The position numbers were made by a program, and so were the translations under genes. A stretch of 64,000 nt of DNA from Rhodomicrobium lacus (lineage in GTDB: Bacteria; Pseudomonadota; Alphaproteobacteria; Rhizobiales; Rhodomicrobiaceae): assembly GCF_003992725.1 (NCBI RefSeq), contig NZ_RZNF01000002.1, positions 558,001 to 622,000 on the forward strand, given 5' to 3'. Below, piece by piece: positions 43,952-57,548 of the stretch. Every line of letters starts with the position of its first letter. The stretch's first letter is position 1. The notes beneath the pieces were generated by a model, which was given only the letters and a program-made list of their open reading frames with translations, ran no database searches and was not told where the DNA came from.

Positions 43952-44040
43952 AGCGCCCTAAATAATAGCATACAATCTACACGGCAACTGAGTTGCATCC
44001 GCTTCGGTCAAAAGCGGGGGGCATCGGTTCTTTTTTGCAA

Positions 44041-44056
44041 CCTCGCATCTGCGAGG
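44041..44056 (+). promoter_or_regulatory. Hairpin next to the STAS-gene ribosome site
   Basis: CCTCGC (44041-44046) and GCGAGG (44051-44056) form a perfect stem with an ATCT loop. It stops two bases before the ribosome site GGAGG (44058-44062). CCTC can alternatively pair with GAGG of that site, so the element could tune translation of the operon's first gene. Confidence 0.45.
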
Positions 44057-44070
44057 CGGAGGTTTTCCGT

Positions 44071-44397
44071 ATGTGCTCTGATGTAATCGACAAGACGAAA
44101 GCTGGAACGCTCGAACTCGAGGGCGATCTCGGGCCTCGCAATGCAAGCGGACTCCATGAAGCCCTGCTCGCGGCCCTTGGCGATGAGAACGAAGTCCTGG
44201 TGGATGCACGACGCGTCACATCGCTCGACGTCTCAATTCTCCAAGTCCTGATCGCAGCCCACGTGGCGGCCGAGAAACTCGGGCGCACCATTACGCTCCT
44301 GCGCACGCCTGAAGGTGCTGTCGAGACCACCTTCGCGAGGGCGGGCCTTGCCATCCCCGCAGGCTTTACCCCGCCTCAGACGGCTCTTTCACGATAG
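44071..44397 (+). CDS. STAS-domain protein
   Basis: A 108-residue STAS protein related to anti-sigma-factor antagonists and MlaB-type proteins. TLELEGDLGPRNASGLHEAL is the first strand-helix unit and VLVDARRVTSLDVSILQVLI the switch region; the usual DxSG(V/I) phosphorylation loop reads TSLDVSILQ, with Ser retained. The start at 44071 has GGAGG eight bases upstream. As the first gene of a che operon it resembles the STAS proteins that head some alternative chemosensory clusters. Its partner is unknown. Confidence 0.88.
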   Translation: MCSDVIDKTKAGTLELEGDLGPRNASGLHEALLAALGDENEVLVDARRVTSLDVSILQVLIAAHVAAEKLGRTITLLRTPEGAVETTFARAGLAIPAGFTPPQTALSR

Positions 44398-44414: not shown

Positions 44415-44783
44415 ATGTCGAAAACGATCCTTGCCATCGACGATTCGCCATCGGTCCTCCAGATGGTTTCCCTCACCTTGTCATCAGCCGGCTATCAGGT
44501 GATGGAGGCAGTCGATGGCGCAGACGGCTATGCGAAAGCCGTGGCCACGCCCATCGACGCGGTGATCACCGATCTCAACATGCCGCGCGTAAACGGGCTC
44601 GAATTCATCCGCAAATATCGAAGCCACCCATCCAGCGCCGGTGTGCCTGTCATCTTCCTCTCCACGGAATCGGACGCGGCATCGAAGAACGAGGCGAAGG
44701 CCGCCGGAGCCACAGGCTGGATCGTGAAGCCTTTCAAGCAGGACCAGCTCCTTGCCATTCTGAAAAAGGTGCTCGGCGCATGA
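44415..44783 (+). CDS. cheY: Response regulator CheY
   Basis: A 122-residue stand-alone receiver. The acid pocket is Asp9-Asp10, the phosphoacceptor Asp53 is in VITDLNMPRVNG, the switch residues are Ser83/Thr84 in FLSTES, and Lys105 is in IVKPFKQDQL. It is the output of the CheA kinase encoded next, with which it shares an ATGA overlap. It could act on the flagellar motor or, given the STAS gene, on another target. Confidence 0.95.
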   Translation: MSKTILAIDDSPSVLQMVSLTLSSAGYQVMEAVDGADGYAKAVATPIDAVITDLNMPRVNGLEFIRKYRSHPSSAGVPVIFLSTESDAASKNEAKAAGATGWIVKPFKQDQLLAILKKVLGA

Positions 44784-46783
44784 AAGCCTCCGACCCAACA
44801 GACACCTTCCGTCAGGAAGCCAGAGAACTCCTGGACGCACTCGAAGAGACACTGCTCGACCTCGAACAGCGGCCGGACGACAAGGCTCTCGTGGACCAGA
44901 GTTTCCGCGCCCTGCACACGCTGAAAGGCTCGGGCGCGATGTTCGGCTTCGACGAGATGGCCGAGTTCGTCCACGAATTCGAGACGGCCTTCGATCGGGT
45001 CCGCAAAGGCAGTGCGCCCATCAGTCCCGCGCTCGCCGCCATCGCGCTGGCAGCAAAGGACCACATCCATAGGCTCATCGTCGAGCCCGCCCTTCATGCC
45101 GACGATTCTGCCAGGCTCCTCAGCGAACTTCGCGAGGCAGCGAGCAAGGCGGAGAGTGACGCGGAAGAGGTTACAGAGGCTCTTTCCGAGCGGCCCCGCG
45201 GAGGTTGCCTTGTCCGCTTCCGGCTTCCGGCCGACGCGATCGCCTTCGGCACGAATCCATTGCTTCTTCTCGATGAGTTACGCGAGCTTGGCGCCTGCTC
45301 CGTGAAGGCGTTGGTCGATCAACTGCCCCCGCTCGAAGTCATGAACCCGCAAGCGTCCTATCTCGGCTGGGAAGTTACCTTCCCGAACGAGGTCGGAACA
45401 GACAAGATCGAGGACGTCTTTCTTTTCATCCGCGACGGAACCGACCTTTCGATCAAACCTATCGATCAGGGCGACGCGTTCACGGCACCCGAACCAGCCG
45501 AAGAGCAGGACAGCGAAACGCCTGCGGCCTCCAAGCCGGATGCGGATGAGCCTTCCCGTCGCGCGAGGGATATCGCACCGGCGGCCAACAAGGCCAGTTC
45601 ATCCGTAAGAGTTGCGGCTGAACGGCTCGACGAGTTGATGGACAGGGTTGGGGAACTGGTGATCGTCCAGTCGCGTCTCTCCCAGATCGCGGGCGCCAGC
45701 AACGATCTCAATCTCAAGGCCGTCGTGGAAGAACTCGGCAGGCTCTCTTCCGGGCTTCGCGACACCACCATGGGAATCAGGATGGTGCCGATCGGCACGG
45801 TCTTCTCGCGCTTTCGCCGTCTCGTTCACGACCTGTCGAATGATCTCGGCAAGGAGGTCGATTTCGTCACGACCGGCGGTGAAACCGAACTCGACAAGAC
45901 CATGATCGAGCGTCTGGCCGACCCGCTCGTGCATATCATTCGCAACGCTATCGATCATGGTCTGGAGAGCCCGGAGACAAGAGCCAGTGCCGGCAAGCCC
46001 GCCAGAGGACAGGTCCGCCTCGCCGCGATCCACACAGGCGCGGAAGTCGCGATCTCGATCATCGATGACGGCGCCGGTATCGACGCCGCGCGCATCCGCG
46101 TCAAAGCCGAAGAGGCCGGGCTTGTCTTGCCCGACCAGAAGATAAGCAACCACGAACTGTGCCAGCTCATCTTCCACCCCGGTTTTTCGACCGCGAGCGA
46201 AGTCACGTCCGTCTCGGGGCGCGGCGTCGGAATGGACGTCGTCAAGCGGGCGGTCGAGGGTCTGCGCGGCACGATAGATCTGACGACCACACCCGGACAA
46301 GGCACCGTCGTGACGCTCCGCCTGCCCCTGACCCTTGCGATCATCGAAAGCATGCTCGTACGGGTTGGCCGGGGACGCTACGCAATCCCGCTGTCGGCAG
46401 TGGAAGAATGCGTCGAATTGCCAAGCACAACCGAACTGGGCGGAAACGGGAAGAACTTCCTCAACATACGGGGACGGATCGTGCCTTTCCTGCGGTTGCG
46501 GGAGCTGTTCAAGGTCAATGCGCCGCCGGACCTCCATCAGAAGGTCGTCATCGTCTCGGCGGGCGAGTCCCGGGTCGGCTTCGTCGTCGACCAGATCATC
46601 GGCAACAGCCAGACGGTGATCAAGTCCATGTCGAAACTTCATTCCGACATCGAGACCTTCTCCGGTGCAACTATCCTCGGAGACGGCACGGTCGCGCTGA
46701 TACTGGACATCAGTTCCCTCGTCGCCTTCGGCCAGGCGTTTGAAAGACAGTGGAGAGGCGAAGGCCTGGGGAGGGTTGCATGA
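44780..46783 (+). CDS. cheA: Chemotaxis histidine kinase CheA
   Basis: A 667-residue kinase. The P1 domain has the phosphorylated His46 in SFRALHTLKGSGAMFGF. A P2-like domain spans about 145-235. An acidic linker and dimerisation region follow to about 340. The ATP-binding domain shows HIIRNAIDHGLE (N box near 385), DDGAGID and GRGVGMDVVK. The CheW-like regulatory domain fills 515-650. ATG 44780 is coupled to cheY; the frame is open further back only as a cheY shadow. All catalytic motifs look intact. Confidence 0.96.
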   Translation: MKASDPTDTFRQEARELLDALEETLLDLEQRPDDKALVDQSFRALHTLKGSGAMFGFDEMAEFVHEFETAFDRVRKGSAPISPALAAIALAAKDHIHRLIVEPALHADDSARLLSELREAASKAESDAEEVTEALSERPRGGCLVRFRLPADAIAFGTNPLLLLDELRELGACSVKALVDQLPPLEVMNPQASYLGWEVTFPNEVGTDKIEDVFLFIRDGTDLSIKPIDQGDAFTAPEPAEEQDSETPAASKPDADEPSRRARDIAPAANKASSSVRVAAERLDELMDRVGELVIVQSRLSQIAGASNDLNLKAVVEELGRLSSGLRDTTMGIRMVPIGTVFSRFRRLVHDLSNDLGKEVDFVTTGGETELDKTMIERLADPLVHIIRNAIDHGLESPETRASAGKPARGQVRLAAIHTGAEVAISIIDDGAGIDAARIRVKAEEAGLVLPDQKISNHELCQLIFHPGFSTASEVTSVSGRGVGMDVVKRAVEGLRGTIDLTTTPGQGTVVTLRLPLTLAIIESMLVRVGRGRYAIPLSAVEECVELPSTTELGGNGKNFLNIRGRIVPFLRLRELFKVNAPPDLHQKVVIVSAGESRVGFVVDQIIGNSQTVIKSMSKLHSDIETFSGATILGDGTVALILDISSLVAFGQAFERQWRGEGLGRVA

Positions 46784-47289
46784 GCCACGCGTTCGAGAAG
46801 GCGGGCGTGCCTGCGAGCATGAAGGCACTCACCATCGGACTGCAGGGCGAGGTCTTCGCGCTTCCCGCAGAATCCGTGAGAGAAATCCTCGACATGGTGC
46901 CCATTACCGAGGTGCCCAATGCCAGGGCCTTCGTCGGCGGGGTGCTCAATGTGCGGGGCAAGGTCGTGCCTCTCGCCGATCTCAGGGTGATGTTCGGCAT
47001 GGAGCGGACGCCGCCCGATACCAACACACGCATCGTGGTCATCGAGGTCGATCTGGAGGGTGAGCCGACGCTGGTCGGCATCCTCGCCGACAAGGTGCAC
47101 GACGTTACTGAAATCGCGGGCGCTTCCGTCGAAGAGGCGCCAGCGGTGGGCATGCGCTGGCGAGCGGAATTCATTCGCGGCATCGGCAAGCGCGGCGCGG
47201 ACTTCATCATCATTCCCGACATGGCAAGGATCTTTGGGCCGAAGGAGGATCGCGAGACGTCCTCCGCTACGGATGAAAGGAAACTCTAG
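46780..47289 (+). CDS. cheW: Chemotaxis coupling protein CheW (first copy)
   Basis: A 169-residue CheW. MKALTIGLQGEVFALPAESV and REILDMVPITEVPNARAFVG, then GGVLNVRGKVVPLADLRVMF, are the two SH3-like halves. VVVIEVDLEG and LADKVHDVTEI complete the fold. The start overlaps the cheA stop (ATGA). It links CheA to the chemoreceptors that follow. A 20-residue C-terminal tail (GPKEDRETSS) is not usual. Confidence 0.95.
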   Translation: MSHAFEKAGVPASMKALTIGLQGEVFALPAESVREILDMVPITEVPNARAFVGGVLNVRGKVVPLADLRVMFGMERTPPDTNTRIVVIEVDLEGEPTLVGILADKVHDVTEIAGASVEEAPAVGMRWRAEFIRGIGKRGADFIIIPDMARIFGPKEDRETSSATDERKL

Positions 47290-49014
47290 ATGCAGCTCTC
47301 TCTCAAAGCGAAACTGGCACTCGCCTTCGGTGCACTGCTGCTGCTCGTAAGCGGCCTCGGCGGCATCGCGACCTTGCAGATGAACAAGATGGAGGCCCAG
47401 ACGATCGTTATCACGAACAAGTGGTTACCGAGCGTTGATGCCGTCCACGGCATCAATTCCGGACTGGGACGATATCGCGCCGCCGAATTCAGGCTTGTGA
47501 TGGCGAATACGCCAGAAGAAAGGCGTTTTTCGGAAGAACGTCTGGACGAATTCAGTCAGCGTTTCAAGAAGCACCAGGAAAGATATCAGGCGCTTATCTC
47601 GGCGCCAGAGGAGAAGGAACTCTATGAGACCTTTCTCGCCAAACTCGGTAACTACATGGGTCTCTCACGCCAACTGATAACTCTGGTAAGAGAGAACCAG
47701 ACGGAAGTGGCCGAGCAAAAACTCAACGAGAACCGCGCAGCATTTGAGGATACGTCCTCGACCCTCAATCGACTGGTTTCGCTCGCCGTGTCCGGCGCAG
47801 ATGCCGCGAGCAAGGAAGCCGACGCCGTCTTCGCCCAGTCCCAGACGATCATCTTCAGCGTCATAGGCGTTGCACTTCTCATCGGCATCGGCACGGCGGT
47901 TTTTCTTATCCGCGACATCTTCCGCACACTCGGAGGCGAGCCGACCTATGCGCGAGACGTGATCAAGGAAATCGCCGACGGCAATCTCAACGTCAAGGTG
48001 GCAACCCGCGACGGCGACGCCCACAGCCTGCTGGCGGCAGCGCGAGATATGGTTGCGAAGCTCAAGAGCGTCATTTCAGAGGTCACGACGTCTGCCCGCA
48101 ATGTCGGTGCCGGCAGCCAGGAACTGTCGGCGACGGCCGAGGAGCTGAGTCAGGGTGCCACCGAGCAGGCGTCTTCGACCGAAGAAGCGTCCTCCTCGGT
48201 GGAGCAGATGGCGTCAAATATCAGGCAGAACGCCGACAACGCCGCTCAGACCGAGAAGATTGCTCGCCAGTCGGCCGCCGATGCCAAGACGAGCGGCGAA
48301 GCGGTGGGCAAGGCCGTCCAGGCCATGGAAACCATCGCCGAAAAGATCCTGATCGTCCAGGAGATCGCCCGGCAGACCGACCTCCTCGCTCTCAACGCGG
48401 CGGTCGAGGCGGCGCGGGCGGGCGAGCATGGCCGCGGGTTTGCGGTCGTCGCTTCCGAGGTTCGCAAGCTCGCCGAGCGGAGCCAGGCCGCGGCGCAGGA
48501 AATCTCCGGCCTCTCCGGCGACACGGTCAAGGCCGCCCAGCAGGCCGGCGAGATGCTGGGGCGCCTCGTGCCCGACATCCAGCGCACCGCCGAACTCGTG
48601 TCCGAAATCTCGAACGCGACCCGTGAACAGAATGCGGGCGCGGCGCAGATCAACATCGCGATCCAGCAACTCGACAAGGTGACCCAGCAGAATACCGCCG
48701 CTTCTGAGGAAATGGCATCGACATCGGAGGAACTGGCAAGCCAGGCGGAGCAGCTTCAGCAGGCCGTCAGCTACTTCCAGATCGATGAGGCAGGCTTCGC
48801 GAGCGTTGAGCGCAACCGGCAGCCCGCGAAGATAACGGGGCGCCTCAGCGTCGCGCAAATGCAGGACGCGCTGCGCCACGCCGCTCCCTCGATCGCGGCG
48901 AGCCACAACCCAGCCAGGAAGCCGAAGCCTGCGGCCCAGAACGGCTTCGCCCTCAACATGGATGAGCTTGGCGACGATCTCGACAGGCACTTCGTGCGCA
49001 ATGGAGCGGCGTAA
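47290..49014 (+). CDS. Methyl-accepting chemotaxis protein 1
   Basis: A 574-residue receptor. TM1 is at about 10-30 ([19 protein letters not shown]), a four-helix-bundle type periplasmic domain covers 31-190, and TM2 is at about 191-215 ([20 protein letters not shown]). One HAMP domain follows ([20 protein letters not shown]). The cytoplasmic hairpin tip is the canonical [20 protein letters not shown] with [18 protein letters not shown]. The signalling part is almost identical to that of the next two receptors, while the periplasmic part is unrelated. The C-terminus ([13 protein letters not shown]) has no CheR-binding pentapeptide. It starts right at the cheW stop. Confidence 0.95.
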
Positions 49015-49229: not shown

Positions 49230-51047
49230 ATGCGCTTTACTATAAAGCTAAAACTTGCATTAGCTTTCGGAACCATCATCGCCTTGGTTCTGGGGCTCTC
49301 CCTTTACGCCATATCGAGCTTGAACTCGCTGAATTCGGCCATCACCGACGTCCTAAAAGGCCCGGTGAAACGGCTTGAGCTCTCCTATCAAGTCAATCTC
49401 CACATCTCCGATAGCATCAGGGCTCAGAAAAATGCGCTTTTGACGCAGGACAGCCGGGAGGCCGCCGACTTTGCGAGAAAAGCGGTCAGCAGTCTCCAGG
49501 ATGCCGAACGCGGTTGGAAAGACGGTCTCGCCAGGGCTACGGAAGCGGGACGCCCTTACTGGACCAGCTTGTCCAATCTCGGCGAAAAGCTGACCCAGGC
49601 GACGCAGAACTTTTCCGCTGCACTGAATTCGGGCGACAAGGCAACCGCGACCGACATTTCAAACGGCGAGATCCGGACGATCTATGCCGAGGTGAGCAAG
49701 GCAATCGAGACGCTCATTGAAAGACAGCAAAACCAGTTGGAACAGGCCGATCATGACACCGACGTTCTTTATGCCGATACGTTAAAACTTCTGATGATTG
49801 CCGTCGCAGCGGTATTGCTCATCGCTGTGGCCGCCGGCCTGTGGATTTCGCTCGGCATCAACAACGGCCTGCGCAAGGTCAAGACCGCGGCGGATGCGGT
49901 CGCTATCGGCGACCTCAACCACACTGTCGAAATCAGAACGAACGACGAGATCAAGGATCTGGTCGAGACCTTCAACGCCATGACCGGCAACCTGCGCGCG
50001 ACTGCAGCGGTTGCCGATCGCATCGCCAACGGCGACCTCACCGTCTCGCACAAGCCGCTGTCGGACAAGGACACGCTCGGTCTCGCTCTCGCCAGCATGG
50101 TCGAGCGCCTGCGCGGCGTCATCTCGGAGGTCACGACGTCCGCCCGCAATGTCAGCGCCGGGAGCCAGGAACTGTCCGCGACAGCCGAGGAACTGAGCCA
50201 GGGTTCAACGGAGCAGGCATCTTCGACCGAAGAAGCGTCCTCATCAGTGGAGGAGATGGCGTCGAATATCAAACAGAACGCCGACAACGCCGCTCAGACC
50301 GAGAAAATGGCGCGCCAGTCGGCAACCGATGCCAAGACGAGCGGCGAAGCGGTGGGCAAGGCCGTGCAGGCCATGGAAACCATCGCCGAAAAGATCCTGA
50401 TCGTTCAGGAGATCGCCCGGCAGACCGACCTTCTCGCGCTCAACGCGGCGGTCGAAGCGGCGCGGGCGGGCGAGCATGGCCGCGGGTTTGCGGTCGTCGC
50501 CTCCGAGGTTCGCAAGCTCGCCGAGCGAAGCCAAGCCGCGGCGCAGGAAATCTCCGGCCTCTCCGGCGACACGGTCAAGGCCGCCCAGCAGGCCGGCGAG
50601 ATGCTGGGGCGCCTCGTGCCCGACATCCAGCGCACCGCCGAACTGGTGTTCGAAATCTCGAACGCCACCCGTGAACAGAATGCGGGCGCGGCGCAGATCA
50701 ACATCGCGATCCAGCAGCTCGACAAGGTGACCCAGCAGAACACCGCCGCGGCCGAGGAAATGGCATCGACATCGGAGGAACTGGCAGGCCAGGCCGAGCA
50801 GCTTCAGCAGGCCGTCGCCTACTTCCGGATCGATGAGGCAGGCTCGGCGAGGGTCGAGCGCAACCGGCAGCCCGCGAAGATAACGGGGCGCCTCAGCGTC
50901 GCGCAAATGCAGGACGCGCTGCGCCACGCCGCTCCCTCGATCGCGCCCAGAAGCCCGAAGCCCTCGGCCCAGAACGGCTTCGCCCTCAACATGGATGAGC
51001 TTGGCGACGATCTCGACAAGCAGTTCGTGCGCAACGGAGCGGCATGA
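49230..51047 (+). CDS. Methyl-accepting chemotaxis protein 2
   Basis: A 605-residue receptor. TM1 is at about 8-30 ([20 protein letters not shown]), a periplasmic helical bundle follows, and TM2 is at about 190-213 ([19 protein letters not shown]). Two HAMP-like units come next: [20 protein letters not shown] and [20 protein letters not shown]. The signalling tip [20 protein letters not shown] is unchanged from receptor 1. It is a close paralogue of receptor 3 along its whole length, and the upstream 130 bases are also shared, which shows a tandem duplication. Confidence 0.95.
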
Positions 51048-51097: not shown

Positions 51098-51273
51098 GCC
51101 CCTTACCAGAAAACAGCGAGGACGACGGCAAGAAAAACTGAACGTTACAAGGGGGCGCTCTTTACTTGATCACGGACGCATACAGAACGGATGCCCCTCC
51201 CCCCGGGCATCTCCCGATCAACACCACCAAGAGCGCCCATAGTGGCGGGCGCCAACCAGACGGAACAAGTGTT

Positions 51274-53205
51274 ATGCGCTTCACCATAAAGCTAAAACTT
51301 GCATTGGCTTTCGGAACCATCATCGCCTTGGTCCTGGGGCTCTCCCTTTACGCCATATCGAGCTTGAACTCGCTGAATTCGGCCATCACCGATGTCATAA
51401 AAGGCCCGGTAAAGCGGCTTGAGCTCTCCTATCAAGTCAATCTCCACATCCTTGAGAGTATCAGGACTCAGAAAAACGCGCTTCTGGCGCAAGACAGCCG
51501 GGAGATCGAAGATTTCTCGCGAAAAACGGTCCGCAGTCTTCAGGATGCCGAACGCGTTTGGAAAGACGGTCTCGCCAAGGCTCCGGAAGCGGGACGCCCT
51601 TACTGGATCAGCGTCTCCAATCTCGGCGAGAAGCTCACTCAGGCGACGCAGAACTTTTCCGCAGCACTGAATTCGGGCAACAAGGCAACCGCAACGGACA
51701 TTTCAAACGGCGATATCCGGACTATCTATGCCGAGGTGAGCAAGGCGGTCGAGACGCTCATTGATATTCAGCAAAAACTGTTGGAACAAGCCGATCATGA
51801 CACCGACGTTCTTTATGCCGATACGTTAAAGCTTCTGATGATTGCCGTCGCAGCAGTATTGCTTATCGCTGTGGCCGCCGGCCTGTGGATTTCGCTCGGC
51901 ATCAACAACGGCCTGCGCAAGGTCAAGGCCGCGGCGGATGCGGTCGCTATCGGCGACCTCAACCACACTGTCGAAGTCAGAACGGACGACGAGATCAAGG
52001 ATCTGGTCGAGACCTTTAACACGATGACCCGCAACCTGCGCGCGACTGCCGCGGTCGCCGATCGCATCGCCAACGGCGACCTTTCCAGCGACGTCAAACC
52101 GCTTTCGGACAAGGACACGCTCGGTATCGCCATGCAGGGCATGACCGCCAATCTTCGCCAGACCGCGCATGTTGCAGACAAGATCGCCAGCGGCGACCTC
52201 ACCGTCTCGCACAAACCGCTGTCAGACAAGGACACGCTCGGTCTCGCCCTCGCCAGCATGGTCGAGCGCCTGCGCGGCGTCATCTCGGAGGTCACGACGT
52301 CCGCCCGCAATGTCAGCGCCGGGAGCCAGGAACTGTCGGCGACGGCCGAGGAACTGAGCCAGGGCTCAACGGAGCAGGCATCCTCGACCGAAGAAGCGTC
52401 CTCCTCGGTGGAGGAGATGGCGTCGAATATCAGGCAGAACGCCGACAACGCCGCTCAGACCGAGAAAATGGCGCGCCAGTCGGCCATCGATGCCAAGACG
52501 AGCGGCGAAGCGGTGGACAAGGCCGTCCAGGCCATGGAAACCATCGCCGAAAAGATCCTGATCGTGCAGGAGATCGCCCGGCAGACCGACCTCCTCGCGC
52601 TCAACGCGGCGGTCGAAGCGGCTCGGGCGGGCGAGCATGGCCGCGGGTTTGCGGTCGTCGCCTCCGAGGTTCGCAAGCTCGCCGAGCGAAGCCAAGCCGC
52701 GGCGCAGGAAATCTCCGGCCTCTCCGGCGACACGGTCAAGGCCGCCCAGCAGGCCGGCGAGATGCTGGGGCGCCTCGTGCCCGACATCCAGCGCACCGCC
52801 GAACTGGTGTTCGAAATCTCGAACGCCACCCGTGAACAGAATGCGGGCGCGGCGCAGATCAACATCGCGATCCAGCAGCTCGACAAGGTGACCCAGCAGA
52901 ACACCGCCGCGGCCGAGGAAATGGCATCGACTTCGGAGGAACTGGCAGGCCAGGCCGAGCAGCTTCAGCGGGCCGTCAGCTACTTCCGGATCGATGAGGC
53001 AGGCTTCGCGAACGTTGAGCGGCAGCCCGCGAAGGCGACGGGGCGCCTCAGCGTCGCGCAAATGCAGGACGCGCTGCGCCACGCCAGCCCCTCGATTGCG
53101 TCCAGAAGCCCAAAGCCTTCGGCCCAGACTGGCTTCACTCTCAACATGAACGAGCAGCTCGGCGACGATCTCGACAAGCAGTTCGTACGCAACGGAGCGG
53201 CATGA
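51274..53205 (+). CDS. Methyl-accepting chemotaxis protein 3 (extra HAMP unit)
   Basis: A 643-residue receptor that starts [20 protein letters not shown], identical to receptor 2; the longer frame back to 51166 is duplicated spacer. Layout is TM1, periplasmic bundle, TM2, HAMP chain, signalling hairpin. Compared with receptor 2 it has one added 39-residue HAMP unit at 52054-52170 ([20 protein letters not shown] and on), giving three units in series. The periplasmic domain shows scattered substitutions relative to receptor 2 (for example [20 protein letters not shown]). The signalling tip is unchanged. Confidence 0.95.
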
Positions 53206-53277: not shown

Positions 53278-53742
53278 ATGACCGACCAAACACAATATGT
53301 GACGCTTGGCGTCGCCGACGGTCTTTTCGCCGTGCCCGTCGAGAGCGTTCAGCAAATTCTTGAAATCCAGCCTGTCGCGGCGATGCCGAACGCACCGGCC
53401 GATTTTATCGGCCTGATCGATGTTCGCGGCCAGAATGTGCCGGTGATCGATCTGCGAACCAAACTGGCGCTGCCGGCTTCGGCAGACACGCAAAACACCC
53501 GGATCGTCGTTCTCGACGTCTCGGTCGAGGGAGCCACGCGCCGATTCGGTCTGAAAACAGACCGCGTCTTCGAGGTGACCGGCCTCGATCAAGGCGCGCT
53601 CGAACCTCCGCCGGATCTTGGAGCGAGATGGCGCGCTGACTGCGTGGCGGGTGTGGGACGACGCGCCGGAGCGTTCGTCACCGTCCTCGATCTCGACCGG
53701 CTGTTTCTGGCCGACGTCCTCGCGTCGGACTCGTTGGCCTGA
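53278..53742 (+). CDS. cheW: CheW-like coupling protein (second copy)
   Basis: A 154-residue CheW. YVTLGVADGLFAVPVESVQQ, ILEIQPVAAMPNAPADFIGL and IDVRGQNVPVIDLRTKLALP are the family strands, and IVVLDVSVEG begins the second half. It differs clearly from the first CheW (no C-terminal tail). GAGGACAG lies just upstream of the start. Two couplers in one operon may serve different receptors or set array stoichiometry. Confidence 0.94.
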   Translation: MTDQTQYVTLGVADGLFAVPVESVQQILEIQPVAAMPNAPADFIGLIDVRGQNVPVIDLRTKLALPASADTQNTRIVVLDVSVEGATRRFGLKTDRVFEVTGLDQGALEPPPDLGARWRADCVAGVGRRAGAFVTVLDLDRLFLADVLASDSLA

Positions 53743-53803
53743 GGCGCGCGCAGCAGGTGCAACTCGCCTTGATTGACCCGACCCGTATTTGTGGAGTTTT
53801 AGC

Positions 53804-54685
53804 ATGACCGTTGCCCAGCTTGCCGAAGCCCGGCGCGAGAGGATGCCCGATTTCGATCAGCTCGGAGACCGTGACTTCGCGCGCATAGCGACACTGGTCA
53901 GCCGGCAGACCGGAATCCGATTGCCGCCATCGAAAAGAACGATGATCGAAACGCGACTGCGCAAGCGCATGCGCGCCTGCGCCAAGCCGACCTTCGATGC
54001 CTATTGTGCCTACTTGTTCGACAAAGGCGTCGAGGGGACCGAGTTAACGCATCTGATCGATGTGGTGACGACAAACAAGACGGATTTTTTCCGCGAGCCT
54101 GATCATTTCAGCTTCCTTGCCGATCGAGCCGTACCGGATCTGGTTGCCCGCCGCGCCGGCGAGAGAACGCCGCATCTGAAACTCTGGAGCGCGGCAAGTT
54201 CAAACGGCGCCGAGGCCTACACCATGGCCATGATCCTCGCCGATATGGCAGGCGCCAATCTCCGCTTCCAATTCTCGATACTCGGCACCGACGTCTCGAC
54301 GAGGATGCTGGCTGCCGCGAGGCGCGCGGTTTATCCGGCTGGTTTCGTGTCTCCTGTCCCGGAGGCGATGCAGCGACGCTATTTCATGCGTTCGCGCGAT
54401 CCCGAAGCCAATGAGGTGCGCGTGATCCCGGAACTGAGGAACCATGTGCAGTTCTCAGCCATCAACCTGATGGACGAAACCTATCGATACGAGCGCGATT
54501 TCGACGCCATCTTCCTTCGTAATGTGCTGATCTATTTCGAGAAGGACACACAGGTCGCCGTAACCCGCAGATTGATCAGCCATTTGAGACCGAACGGCTA
54601 TCTTTTTCTCGGCCATTCCGAGACGTGGGTCGGCGCCAGTCTGACCGCACGGCAGGTCGCACCATCCATCTTTCAGGTTTTGTGA
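53804..54685 (+). CDS. cheR: Chemoreceptor methyltransferase CheR
   Basis: A 293-residue SAM-dependent enzyme that methylates receptor glutamates. The N-terminal helical domain has [20 protein letters not shown], then [20 protein letters not shown]. The SAM motif reads [16 protein letters not shown], where relatives have CSTGEEPYS, so the first Glu of the motif is Ala here. [16 protein letters not shown] and [15 protein letters not shown] are standard. ATG 53804 has GGAG at 53793-53796 seven bases upstream. Activity is likely, but the motif change deserves notice. Confidence 0.94.
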
Positions 54686-54693
54686 GGCGACCG

Positions 54694-55818
54694 ATGCAGA
54701 ATTCAACAAGACGTTCAGGCGAAAAATTCCGGGTTCTCATCGTGGACGACTCGGCGTCTGTCCGCCAGGCCCTGTCGGACATTCTTTCCAGCGACCCCGA
54801 ACTCGAGGTGATGGCCACGGCCTCGGATCCCTATGTCGCCGCGGAGCGCATCCGTCGGGAGATACCTGACGTCATTTTCCTCGACATCGAGATGCCGCGC
54901 ATGGATGGCCTGACCTTCCTGCGCAAGATCATGGCGCAGCGCCCGCTGCCGGTGGTGATCTGTTCGAGTCTGACCGAGGAGGGGTCGAGCACGCTCATGG
55001 AAGCGATGGAGGCGGGGGCCGTCGACGTCGTTACAAAGCCGCGGATCGGTTCGGTCGAGTTTCTCCAGCACTCGCGAATGCGGATCTGCGATACTGCCAA
55101 GGCAGCCGCGCATGCGAGGCTGAAGCCGCGGGCGACTCAGCCGCTCCGCGTGGAGGCTAAGTTCACGGCCGACGCCATTATTCCCCAGGGTTGGGCAAGA
55201 ACGCGCGCGGATCATTACAGTGCGAGCGATATGATTGTCTGCATCGGCGCGTCGACCGGTGGGACGGAAGCTCTCCGTGATATCCTTCGCGCGCTGCCTG
55301 CGGAATGTCCTCCGATCGTCATCGTTCAGCATATGCCGGAAAAATTCACCGCCGCCTTCGCGCGCCGCCTCGATGGAATCTGCGCCGTGTCGGTCAAGGA
55401 GGCCCAAAGCGGAGATGCGGCAATCCCCGGCCGTGTGCTGATCGCGCCGGGCAATCGCCACATGCTTCTTCAGCGCGCGGGCTCCCGCGTCAGCGTGACC
55501 ATCAAGGACGGTCCTGCGGTGTGCCGGCATCGGCCTTCGGTGGACGTACTCTTCCGATCGGCTGCGCAAAGCCTCGGGCCGCAGGCTCTCGGCATGTTGT
55601 TGACGGGGATGGGCGACGACGGAGCGCAAGGTCTTCTTGAGATGCGCGAGGCGGGTTCTTTCACGATCGCCCAGGACGAGGAAAGCAGCATCGTTTTCGG
55701 TATGCCAAGAGAAGCGATCCGCCGGGGAGCGGCCGTAAAGGTTCTGCCTCTGTCGCGCATGGCGCAGGTGATCATGCAAACGCGCAACCATACAGTCGAT
55801 GCGGTGAAGGCGTCATGA
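54694..55818 (+). CDS. cheB: Chemoreceptor methylesterase/deamidase CheB
   Basis: A 374-residue response regulator-esterase. The receiver has Asp18-Asp19 and phosphoacceptor Asp64 in [16 protein letters not shown]. The catalytic domain has Ser in [12 protein letters not shown], His in [14 protein letters not shown] and Asp in [16 protein letters not shown]. It reverses CheR methylation when phosphorylated by CheA. GAGG at 54684-54687 is six bases before ATG 54694. Its stop overlaps the next start (ATGA). Confidence 0.96.
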
Positions 55819-57548
55819 CGGCTCTTGATGTGATGGCTGTCGAGAAGCCGAGAATGTCCTTCGTGCAGGAAGTCTGCGATCCTTCGGAGATCATCGCGGA
55901 AATAGCCGAGCCTCGGAAGGCAATCGAGCGGACGTTCCTCGAAATGGGCGAACGCCTGATAGGCGGCGTGAAGTTGCTACGGACCGTTTCCGCTGCCCAT
56001 CAGGCCATGGTTGCGGAGTTTCAGGGCCGTGATTTCCTGACTGTTGCCGAGTGCGTGCATGCGCTTCGCGATGAAGTCGCTGAAATCGTCTCAGATCTGG
56101 CAGCCGACGATACCGAAATCGGACAGATCGCCCAGACGATCCGGAAGCTGAAGGATCCTCTCGACGATCTCGCCAACGCCATCAGAATGCTGGATCTCAT
56201 CGCGATCAATGCCCGGGTGGTGGCGGCAGGCGTCGAAGCGGGCCACGAAGATCTCGCTGCCTTCGTGGCAGATATGACGGAGATCGGACGCAAGGCACGC
56301 GAAACGGTCCGTTCGATCCTGAGCATCCACGCCCGCGTCAGCGAAACCGTAGCCAGAGCGACGCAGATTCACCTCGCCTCCAATCGCGAACATGCGAAGA
56401 TCATGGCGACGATTTCGGAACAGCTGAAGGCCAATCTCGCAACCATCGAGCTTCAGCAAGGCCGCGCCGCGTCCTACGCTCAGCGATCCGGCGAACTGAC
56501 ATCGGCGATCAGCATGAGGATCGGCGATGCTATTGCCGCCATGCAGATCGGTGACAGCACCCGTCAGCGGCTTGAGCATGTCGAAGAAATCCTGAGCGCG
56601 ATCCTGGACCGCGGCGGGCCTGGGGATGACGATACCGAGGCGATGCTTTTTCGTCTTGCGGCGTTGCAGCTTGCATCGACCCATGAGGACTTTGCCACCG
56701 AGGTTGTGGCCCTGCTCTCCGCGCTCGACGGTACTCGCCGCGACGCTCAGGCGGTGCTTGAGGAAGGGAGCGAACGGGCAGACGAGATCCTCGCGGACAG
56801 CGGCCACGCCCTGACCGCTCTGGCGAAAAATCTCCAATCCATCGTCCCCCTTCTTCAGAAGGACGCGGACATGCGTCGCACCGTCCGCGAGCTTGGCGAG
56901 GAGACGGCTGATGCGATGCGGGAGATTCTCGGACAGATGGACGCCATCGAAGCGACCGACCACGTGGTCCAGCTTCTGCGTCTCAACATGGCAATCCTCT
57001 GCGCGAGGCTTGGAGAAAGCGCGCGTGGAATGCGCGTGATAGCGGGTGAACTGGGAGCCGTCGCCCGGAGCGCAAAGGGCGCCGCGGCCGGCATGCGTCA
57101 GATCCTGACCGACCTGAAAGACGCCGTCGAGGCCGCGCGAGGGGAAGCCCAGCGATCGGGGGGTCGTGAGGTGAATGGCGATCCCATGAACGCGGCGAGG
57201 CTGCTGGAGACGGTTATGGGTCGCATCAAACAGGAAGCGGCGACGCTGAAGCAGGCTGGGCCGAAGACCATTTGTATTCTCGACGAAGCGGCGGACCGGG
57301 TTCGGGATTGCGCTGACGATCAGCAGGATTGGCCGGATGTCATCTCGGCACTCGATGCCGCAGCGGGAGATCGGGATTTCGCGTCATTGACAGTCGATAG
57401 GGAGCCGCTGGCCGAGATCCGCTCCCGGTACACCATGCAGAAAGAGCGGATCATACACGATCAGGCTTGTGGGGAAGCCGGTGTGCCGTCCGATTGCACG
57501 GATGTGCAGGAAGAAGCCGAAGCAGACCTTGAGAGCCTGCTGTTTTAA
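55815..57548 (+). CDS. Soluble helical chemotaxis protein with two degenerate receptor-tip segments and a CheZ-like DxxxQ motif
   Basis: A 577-residue protein, predicted almost entirely helical, with no signal peptide or membrane helix. Residues 121-162 ([20 protein letters not shown] and on) and 381-427 ([20 protein letters not shown] and on) both resemble the receptor tip [20 protein letters not shown] with its following strand, but with key residues changed. Between them [20 protein letters not shown] (Asp247, Gln251) recalls the D-x-x-x-Q active motif of CheZ. The acidic C-terminus DLESLLF could be a peptide docking tail. The start is coupled to cheB (ATGA). It may dock on CheA/CheW arrays or act on CheY-P. 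This is inference from motif reading. Confidence 0.75.

Follow-up and report, generated by a model that had tools for sequence, protein, structure and literature searches.

A tandem receptor-tip protein with a CheZ-like motif as a candidate CheY-P phosphatase of a che operon in Rhodomicrobium lacus

How phosphorylated CheY (CheY-P) is removed without CheZ, CheC or CheX is, to our knowledge, an open question for many bacteria, and a chemotaxis (che) operon of Rhodomicrobium lacus raises it. We analysed a 64,000-nucleotide window of this genome (NCBI RefSeq assembly GCF_003992725.1, contig NZ_RZNF01000002.1, positions 558,001–622,000; coordinates below are positions in the window, and all features lie on its forward strand). 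The operon closes with a gene for a protein of 577 residues (55815–57548; ATG at 55815, stop ending at 57548) that carries two degenerate receptor tips in tandem and a CheZ-like motif. The original prediction for this gene had named a receptor mimic, a phosphatase, or both. With a probability of roughly 70%, we read the protein as a soluble, single-chain pseudo-dimer of a receptor rod that would act as the CheZ-type CheY-P phosphatase of its own operon. "Both" then holds for its ancestry; phosphatase is the best-supported function, and docking on CheA/CheW is the weaker one because the contact residues E385 and R388 (numbered after the receptor Tsr) are not kept.

Two degenerate receptor tips in one soluble chain

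The start codon overlaps the cheB stop codon as ATGA, in line with the proposed coupling to cheB, and the open reading frame (ORF) closes the che run, as had been claimed. No terminator-like site was found 3' of the gene, the promoter/terminator scan being uninformative. The protein is soluble as predicted by its hydropathy (best 19-residue Kyte-Doolittle mean, 1.48), and the same mean exceeds 1.6 in 6 of 39 family members, with a maximum of 1.89. Searched against its own genome, the single sequence gave one match and the family profile three; among the matches listed was the 577-residue gene, and the other two are presumably receptors. The closest named relative found, from R. udaipurense, is 77% identical, with nonsynonymous and synonymous divergences (dN and dS) of 0.13 and 0.63, which we count in favor of a phosphatase function.

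Two segments had been aligned by eye with the chemoreceptor signaling tip: tip 1 at residues 121–162 (56175–56300) and tip 2 at residues 381–427 (56955–57095). Single-sequence searches reached the region of tip 2. The Pfam model PF00015 matched residues 365–455 (E = 4e-4, 20.7 bits, below the cut-off of 34.6), and phmmer found the Thermotoga receptor 2ch7 at E = 8e-6, its best stretch covering residues 327–441. Profile–profile comparison, for which the family profile was a 37-member alignment, placed the C-terminal half with tip 2 in register on receptor tips (P = 1.9e-10, score 75.5; reversed controls, 20.3 and 20.6). Tip 1 was likewise in register, with a weaker score of 34.7 at residues 101–162, above 60 block-shuffled controls (at most 27.1) and reversed ones (16.7 and 19.2); it also aligns to the intact tip of a second protein group described below. 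The N- and C-terminal halves matched each other with a score of 49.6 over 184 columns (shuffles at most 31.7; reversed, 31.0 and 34.8). Since half-versus-tip and half-versus-half scores all exceed their controls, both tips are real, and the comparison of sequence profiles establishes descent from receptor tips followed by tandem duplication. The two segments thus stand as proposed. For the two families against which profiles were to be run, the outcome was split: similarity to PF00015 is clear, though below the cut-off, and direct similarity to the CheZ family (PF04344) is not significant. Because the receptor similarity is clear, the protein does not fall outside both families.

Conservation was read from 62 aligned rows, comprising 49 carriers from the order of R. 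lacus, four members outside the order and nine plasmid records; these form 41 clusters at an identity of 80% and 25 at 50%. Related rows are not independent. Within tip 2, N391 is identical in 61 of 62 rows (the other row is a gap) and G400 in 60. Tip positions are numbered after Tsr, and we take E385 and R388 to be its trimer and CheA contacts. On this numbering, the N381 and G390 positions, which are N391 and G400 here, are kept in 39/39 members; the E385 position holds E in 0/39 and R or K in 35/39, and the R388 position holds R in 18/39. Key tip residues have therefore been lost, as the original prediction had it.

The clear receptor descent of tip 2 and the near-invariance of N391 and G400 would also suit a non-catalytic receptor mimic, whose tips dock on CheA/CheW and dampen or organize the array while the D-x-x-x-Q pattern is structural. 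Engineered single-chain receptors work, and natural soluble single-chain receptor-like proteins of unknown role are mentioned in the accessible part of PMC4692393. The missing E385 and R388 contacts speak against such a mimic, as does the fact that the D247 block and a C-terminal Y-T-M-x-x-E-R-x-x-H block, both far from the tips, are at least equally strict. We regard it as the most plausible of the alternatives, and still improbable.

The D-x-x-x-Q motif and its link to CheZ

The predicted phosphatase site spans residues 244–255 (56544–56579) and reads Q-x-G-D247-x-T-R-Q251-R-x-E-H. None of the 62 rows deviates at Q244, D247, Q251 or H255; G246 and R252 are identical in 61 and R250 in 60, which upholds the claimed Asp247/Gln251 motif; the D247 block is one of the two strictest of the family. 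The nine plasmid records, 16–20% identical, came to light once the motif was already fixed, and all nine keep D and Q. CheZ uses D-x-x-x-Q as its catalytic pair, and according to the accessible text of PMC3510030 the phosphatase activity of the HisKA_3 kinase NarX requires it as well. The second copy shows no D-x-x-x-Q pattern at the matching place, residues 506–510. In HisKA_3 proteins the phosphorylated histidine stands directly before the D; a phosphatase without a kinase fits here, since the residue before D247 is G in 61 of 62 rows and not histidine.

Three further blocks are conserved. The N-terminal block I-E-x-x-F41-x-x-x-G45-x-x-L48 (residues 37–48; 55923–55958) keeps E38 in 60/62 rows and F41, G45 and L48 in 61/62. 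The block Y-T-M-x-x-E-R-x-x-H (residues 539–548; 57429–57458) keeps T540, E544 and R545 in 61/62, the remaining row being a gap in a truncated sequence, and H548 in 60/62. Its strictness is similar to that of the predicted catalytic motif, and it aligns with the C-terminal region of the second group; we know of no role for it. The last nine residues, E-A-D-L-E-S-L-L-F (57519–57545), run from acidic to hydrophobic and resemble the C-terminal end of CheZ. Among their last three residues, 60/62 rows have a hydrophobic pair, which follows a variable stretch and mostly stands behind acidic residues; we take this end to be a putative CheY-docking peptide. Most strict columns cluster at the tips or at the opposite end, and the shafts between them are variable, a pattern that would fit a folded rod with its site remote from the tip. 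One truncated member (locus L087, genome G737) has 385 residues and ends before tip 2; its N-terminal copy and motif are present, with H for G246, and it may represent a frameshift, a pseudogene or an assembly error.

With its CheZ-like end, and with D and Q missing from the matching place of the second copy, the protein might instead be a binder or sink for CheY-P, in which motif and C-terminal end bind without hydrolysis and CheY is buffered or localized. Identity of both CheZ-catalytic residues in 62/62 rows seems to go beyond the needs of binding alone, and we hold a pure sink to be distinctly unlikely.

The link to CheZ runs through the second group. A phylum-wide search of 299 genomes gave one match outside the class (G868), a 421-residue open frame between CheY and CheW matches, in which a hydrophobic segment is followed by an intact receptor tip and then by F-Q-F-Q-D-R-V-S-Q-R-L-S-H-I, Y-T-M-Q-D-E-R-E-L-H and a C-terminal D-I-T-F-F. 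We then searched 203 genomes of its class, which we guess to be Gammaproteobacteria; 30 had a match at E up to 1e-15, G868 included. Among the 30 fetched loci (L127–L156), 26 encode [LVMF]-Q-[FY]-[QED]-D-x-x-x-Q, counting the query's own locus (L125 and L127 hold one and the same gene); the other four, longer receptors without the motif, were dropped. Members of the group have about 400 residues and are membrane-anchored, with an intact receptor tip followed by LQF[QED]D-x-x-x-Q. The C-terminal residue is F in 26/26, a hydrophobic segment lies within the first 130 residues in 25/25 tested, and short flanks contain a CheY, CheA or CheB match in 20/26. These proteins are probably filed as ordinary receptors, because all 25 scanned match Pfam MCPsignal. 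The Pfam CheZ model matched three of 25 weakly at E up to 0.1, the best at E = 1.7e-4 and 22.0 bits (cut-off 30.7). A profile search of the PDB with the group returned receptors and generic coiled coils, with no CheZ among the best 60 of 103 matches, and a plasmid search with its protein gave no match.

Profile comparison connects this group in both directions. Against CheZ it scored 47.9 (P = 5.7e-6; highest of 50 shuffles, 28.8; reversed, 21.5). In the 577-residue family, it scored 112.1 against the N-terminal half (residues 22–266; highest shuffle, 36.4; reversed, 24.7) and 128.2 against the C-terminal half (reversed, 24.4). With the tips removed, the scores were 41.8 for CheZ (shuffles at most 25.9), 56.9 for the N-terminal half (at most 32.8) and 50.5 for the C-terminal half (at most 22.1). 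Tip aligns on tip in both halves; the motif falls on D247/Q251 in the N-terminal half, and the end of the group falls on the Y-T-M block in the C-terminal half. The motif Asp follows the tip Asn at a distance of 115 residues in 25/26 members of the group and in 23/37 of the 577-residue family, the R. lacus protein included, and at 108–116 in the remaining family members. As judged from these alignments, the similarity of the family to CheZ is seen through the intermediate group, and not directly.

The same comparisons bear on a different origin of the motif. Receptors carry a C-terminal segment, Q-x-D-x-V-T-Q-Q, that also reads D-x-x-x-Q, and the pattern occurs in 19 of 27 receptors tested; the D247 motif could be this segment carried along, unrelated to CheZ. 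That segment lies 93 (17 receptors) or 100 (two receptors) residues behind the tip Asn and not 115, and a profile of the region behind the tip in the second group reaches 20.8 with receptors, compared with 41.8 for CheZ and 56.9 for the 577-residue family. A carried-over receptor segment is accordingly very unlikely.

CheZ itself was also compared directly. Its profile set consisted of one E. coli sequence and 26 from the window's order, many of them alike. E. coli CheZ has 214 residues, with D143 and Q147 and a C-terminal D-D-L-L-D-S-L-G-F; alphaproteobacterial CheZ reads F-Q-D-[LI]-T-G-Q-R and mostly ends in S-Q-D-D-I-D-[AS]-L-F plus one residue. On a matrix built from five non-redundant CheZ motifs, the 577-residue family averaged +4.7 at the D247 site and −7.9 at its next window. 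The best windows of other families were −1.5 (MCP), −6.0 (CheA), −5.4 (CheB), −6.2 (CheR), −4.0 and −5.0 (two CheW alignments) and −5.4 (CheY). Only family averages were used, since high motif scores are not rare in single sequences.

Several results weigh against a CheZ-type phosphatase. The single-sequence motif scan was set aside as evidence, as 41 of 1,406 other ORFs reach the family median and receptors score similarly. The best alignment of CheZ to the whole family (30.2, P = 0.004) falls on residues 399–457, off the motif; the alignment with the motif in register comes second at 21.4. Against the N-terminal half, CheZ scored 20.9, and the best of 60 shuffles reached 22.0; the direct profile match is therefore not significant and was rejected as stand-alone evidence. 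The protein has no CheZ match in Pfam (E up to 10) or NCBIfam, and CheZ is absent from the best 25 of 39 Pfam families for 31 members. Where CheZ has F-Q in front of the D, this protein has I-G (A-M-Q-I-G-D); A-x-x-F-Q directly precedes the catalytic D in CheZ (PMC7750401). In the second group, the exact Y-T-M block occurs in one member only (L125), with its final H kept in 22/26. A CheZ match is present in 25 of the 49 carriers. Finally, the accessible text of PMC13390405 reports no chemotaxis defect after cheA deletion in the third (F8) operon of B. diazoefficiens, a counterpoint that bears on the 577-residue family only if that operon encodes a member.

Taking both sides together, we still favor the phosphatase and infer its catalysis, docking peptide and three-dimensional arrangement as follows. 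Two receptor-type hairpins would lie in tandem in a long helical rod, and the spacing would place both turns at one and the same end of it. D247 and Q251, about 115 residues behind the first tip Asn, would form a CheZ-type active site. By analogy with CheZ, Q251 would enter the CheY-P pocket and position a water molecule to attack the acyl phosphate, with D247 orienting the active-site lysine of CheY. The second copy, without D and Q, would have lost the motif and end in the Y-T-M-x-x-E-R-x-x-H block. From there a variable linker would lead to the acidic-hydrophobic C-terminal end, which would tether CheY, as in CheZ. Equal spacing would bring F41/G45 of the first helix to nearly the height of D247, some 100 residues away from the turn.

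Two structure models were computed: the full-length model, from two sequences, reached a predicted local distance difference test score (pLDDT) of 44.9 and a predicted template modeling score (pTM) of 0.28, and the model of residues 20–275 reached 53.3 and 0.39. Both low-confidence models are all-helical, with the helix broken at or just before D247; of the features originally noted, all but the placement of D247 and Q251 in a helix were confirmed. Further breaks at residues 140–144 (both models) and 398–402 (full-length model) fit two hairpins and carry little weight. With pLDDT values of 45 and 53, neither model was usable as structural evidence.

A wider proposal is more tentative, and we put it well below even odds. 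Receptor rods with a built-in CheZ-type site would make up a protein type that has no name so far and is present in two or more classes of the phylum. Anchored and with its tip intact, such a rod would hold the phosphatase at a fixed height in the array, where the conformation of the receptor could directly gate CheY-P removal as well as CheA activity; the alphaproteobacterial form would be a soluble single-chain descendant, with one live site and one dead. CheZ, further, may itself descend from such a hairpin.

Operon, distribution and other phosphatases

The run preceding the gene comprises STAS, cheY, cheA, cheW, three receptor genes, cheW, cheR and cheB. At its head is a STAS-domain ORF (43993–44397; PF13466, E = 7e-16), followed by cheY (44415–44783; PF00072, E = 2e-25), whose product is the likely substrate. 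Aligned to E. coli CheY, this protein keeps the equivalents of D12, D13, D57 and K109, and T87 is S. The ATG of cheA (44780–46783) overlaps the cheY stop; its product matches Hpt, H-kinase_dim, HATPase_c and CheW, and no P2 (CheY-binding) domain was matched in it by the Pfam scan. The first cheW (46750–47289; PF01584) is followed by receptor genes at 47290–49014 (PF00015 and PF12729), 49230–51047 and 51166–53205. By eye, the signaling regions and C-terminal tails of these three are almost identical, which suggests recent duplication or gene conversion. The second cheW (53278–53742; PF01584), cheR (53789–54685; PF01739 and PF03705) and cheB (54625–55818; PF01339 and PF00072) complete the run.

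With cheY, cheA, cheR, cheB, two cheW and its own receptors, the operon fits, in gene content, the F8 class as described in the accessible part of PMC8429497. The same text describes the class for R. leguminosarum, A. fabacearum and B. diazoefficiens. For the last of these, the accessible part of PMC13390405 draws the che operons with uncharacterized ORFs, reports the third without cheY, and describes CheA3 as lacking P2. In R. leguminosarum, che2 had no effect on free-living motility or competitive nodulation and may influence bacteroid development (PMC7617929, accessible part).

Such reports (PMC7617929 and PMC13390405) leave room for outputs other than motility, and with them for a substrate other than CheY, for example the CheB-P of the operon or a regulator outside the che pathway. 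CheB has a receiver domain, and cheB is the most frequent neighbor. Among the flanks of 37 members, a che gene stands beside the homologue in 33, and in 24 the gene lies directly 3' of cheB on the same strand; another che gene, or cheB in a different orientation, adjoins in nine. Seven of the 37 place the gene at the cheY end of the operon, which counts against CheB-P, and we consider another substrate the least probable of the alternatives. No che gene was found in the stretch read around the remaining four members, all of family f11 (L045, L049, L051 and L024), one stretch being 1.5 kb.

Within the order, at least 49 of 397 genomes hold a match that covers 415 or more query residues. When the whole class was searched, the C-terminal half of the profile picked up many receptors as well; outside the order, the matches listed included full-length members in G439 and G447 and the truncated one in G737. 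The four members outside the order follow cheB, and cheA or cheB lies near seven of the nine plasmid records. Each of the 49 carriers has at least one cheA, and the R. lacus genome has three.

The operon had been said to lack a recognized CheY-P phosphatase, and this extends to the genome: CheZ, CheC and CheX gave no match in R. lacus at E up to 1e-3, a search in which a CheT-like protein would be undetectable. At the same threshold, CheC and CheX were each matched in none of the 49 carriers, and CheZ was unmatched in 24, R. lacus among them. Mutual exclusion of the 577-residue family and CheZ is unsupported; because 25 of the 49 carriers match CheZ, presence of the gene does not imply lack of CheZ.

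Four annotated relatives are labeled "hypothetical protein" (two), "chemotaxis protein" and "type VII secretion target". The last label is carried by two Shinella plasmid relatives (one at L116, 8710–10434) and is apparently a misannotation of a long helical protein. Our reading would correct such annotations. It would also make the family a concrete candidate for CheY-P removal in an alphaproteobacterial operon type that matches F8 gene content, and the second group suggests that receptor and phosphatase can sometimes be one component, a possible clue to the origin of CheZ.

Comparison with known systems

The literature search found no title or abstract opening describing the 577-residue family or the second group, most subscription papers being outside its coverage. 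Among established CheY-P phosphatases, CheC, CheX and FliY are absent from the Pfam matches of the protein. With CheZ (PF04344) it shares D-x-x-x-Q, the order D-x-T-x-Q-R found in alphaproteobacterial CheZ, and an acidic-hydrophobic C-terminal end after a variable linker; it differs in length (577 residues versus 214 in E. coli), in its two receptor tips, in having no F-Q before the D and in giving no PF04344 match. With the MCP signaling domain (PF00015) it shares the sequence of the tip hairpin, including the tip Asn and Gly, whereas it is soluble, holds two copies per chain, has lost the contacts and scores below the Pfam cut-off.

Two receptor signaling units per chain also occur in engineered single-chain Tsr (PMC4692393); those are intact receptors, and the accessible part of that paper mentions no phosphatase motif. 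The natural soluble single-chain receptor-like proteins mentioned there may include the 577-residue family. Wuichet and Zhulin (2010), cited there for these proteins, may mention the family.

The second group has the same order of parts, the 115-residue spacing in 25/26 members and, in L125, the exact Y-T-M-x-x-E-R-x-x-H. It differs in having one copy per chain, presumably acting as a dimer, together with a membrane anchor, an intact tip and a mostly inexact Y-T-M block. In function, a precedent for our reading is CheT of S. meliloti. The accessible text of PMC12654446 describes it as an extra che-cluster protein with D-x-x-x-Q that has no significant homologue among known chemotaxis proteins and speeds up the dephosphorylation of one CheY. 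Compared by this description only, CheT and the R. lacus protein are both additional alphaproteobacterial che-cluster proteins with D-x-x-x-Q, and they differ in the receptor tips, which that text does not describe for CheT and which here would make up the rod that carries the site.

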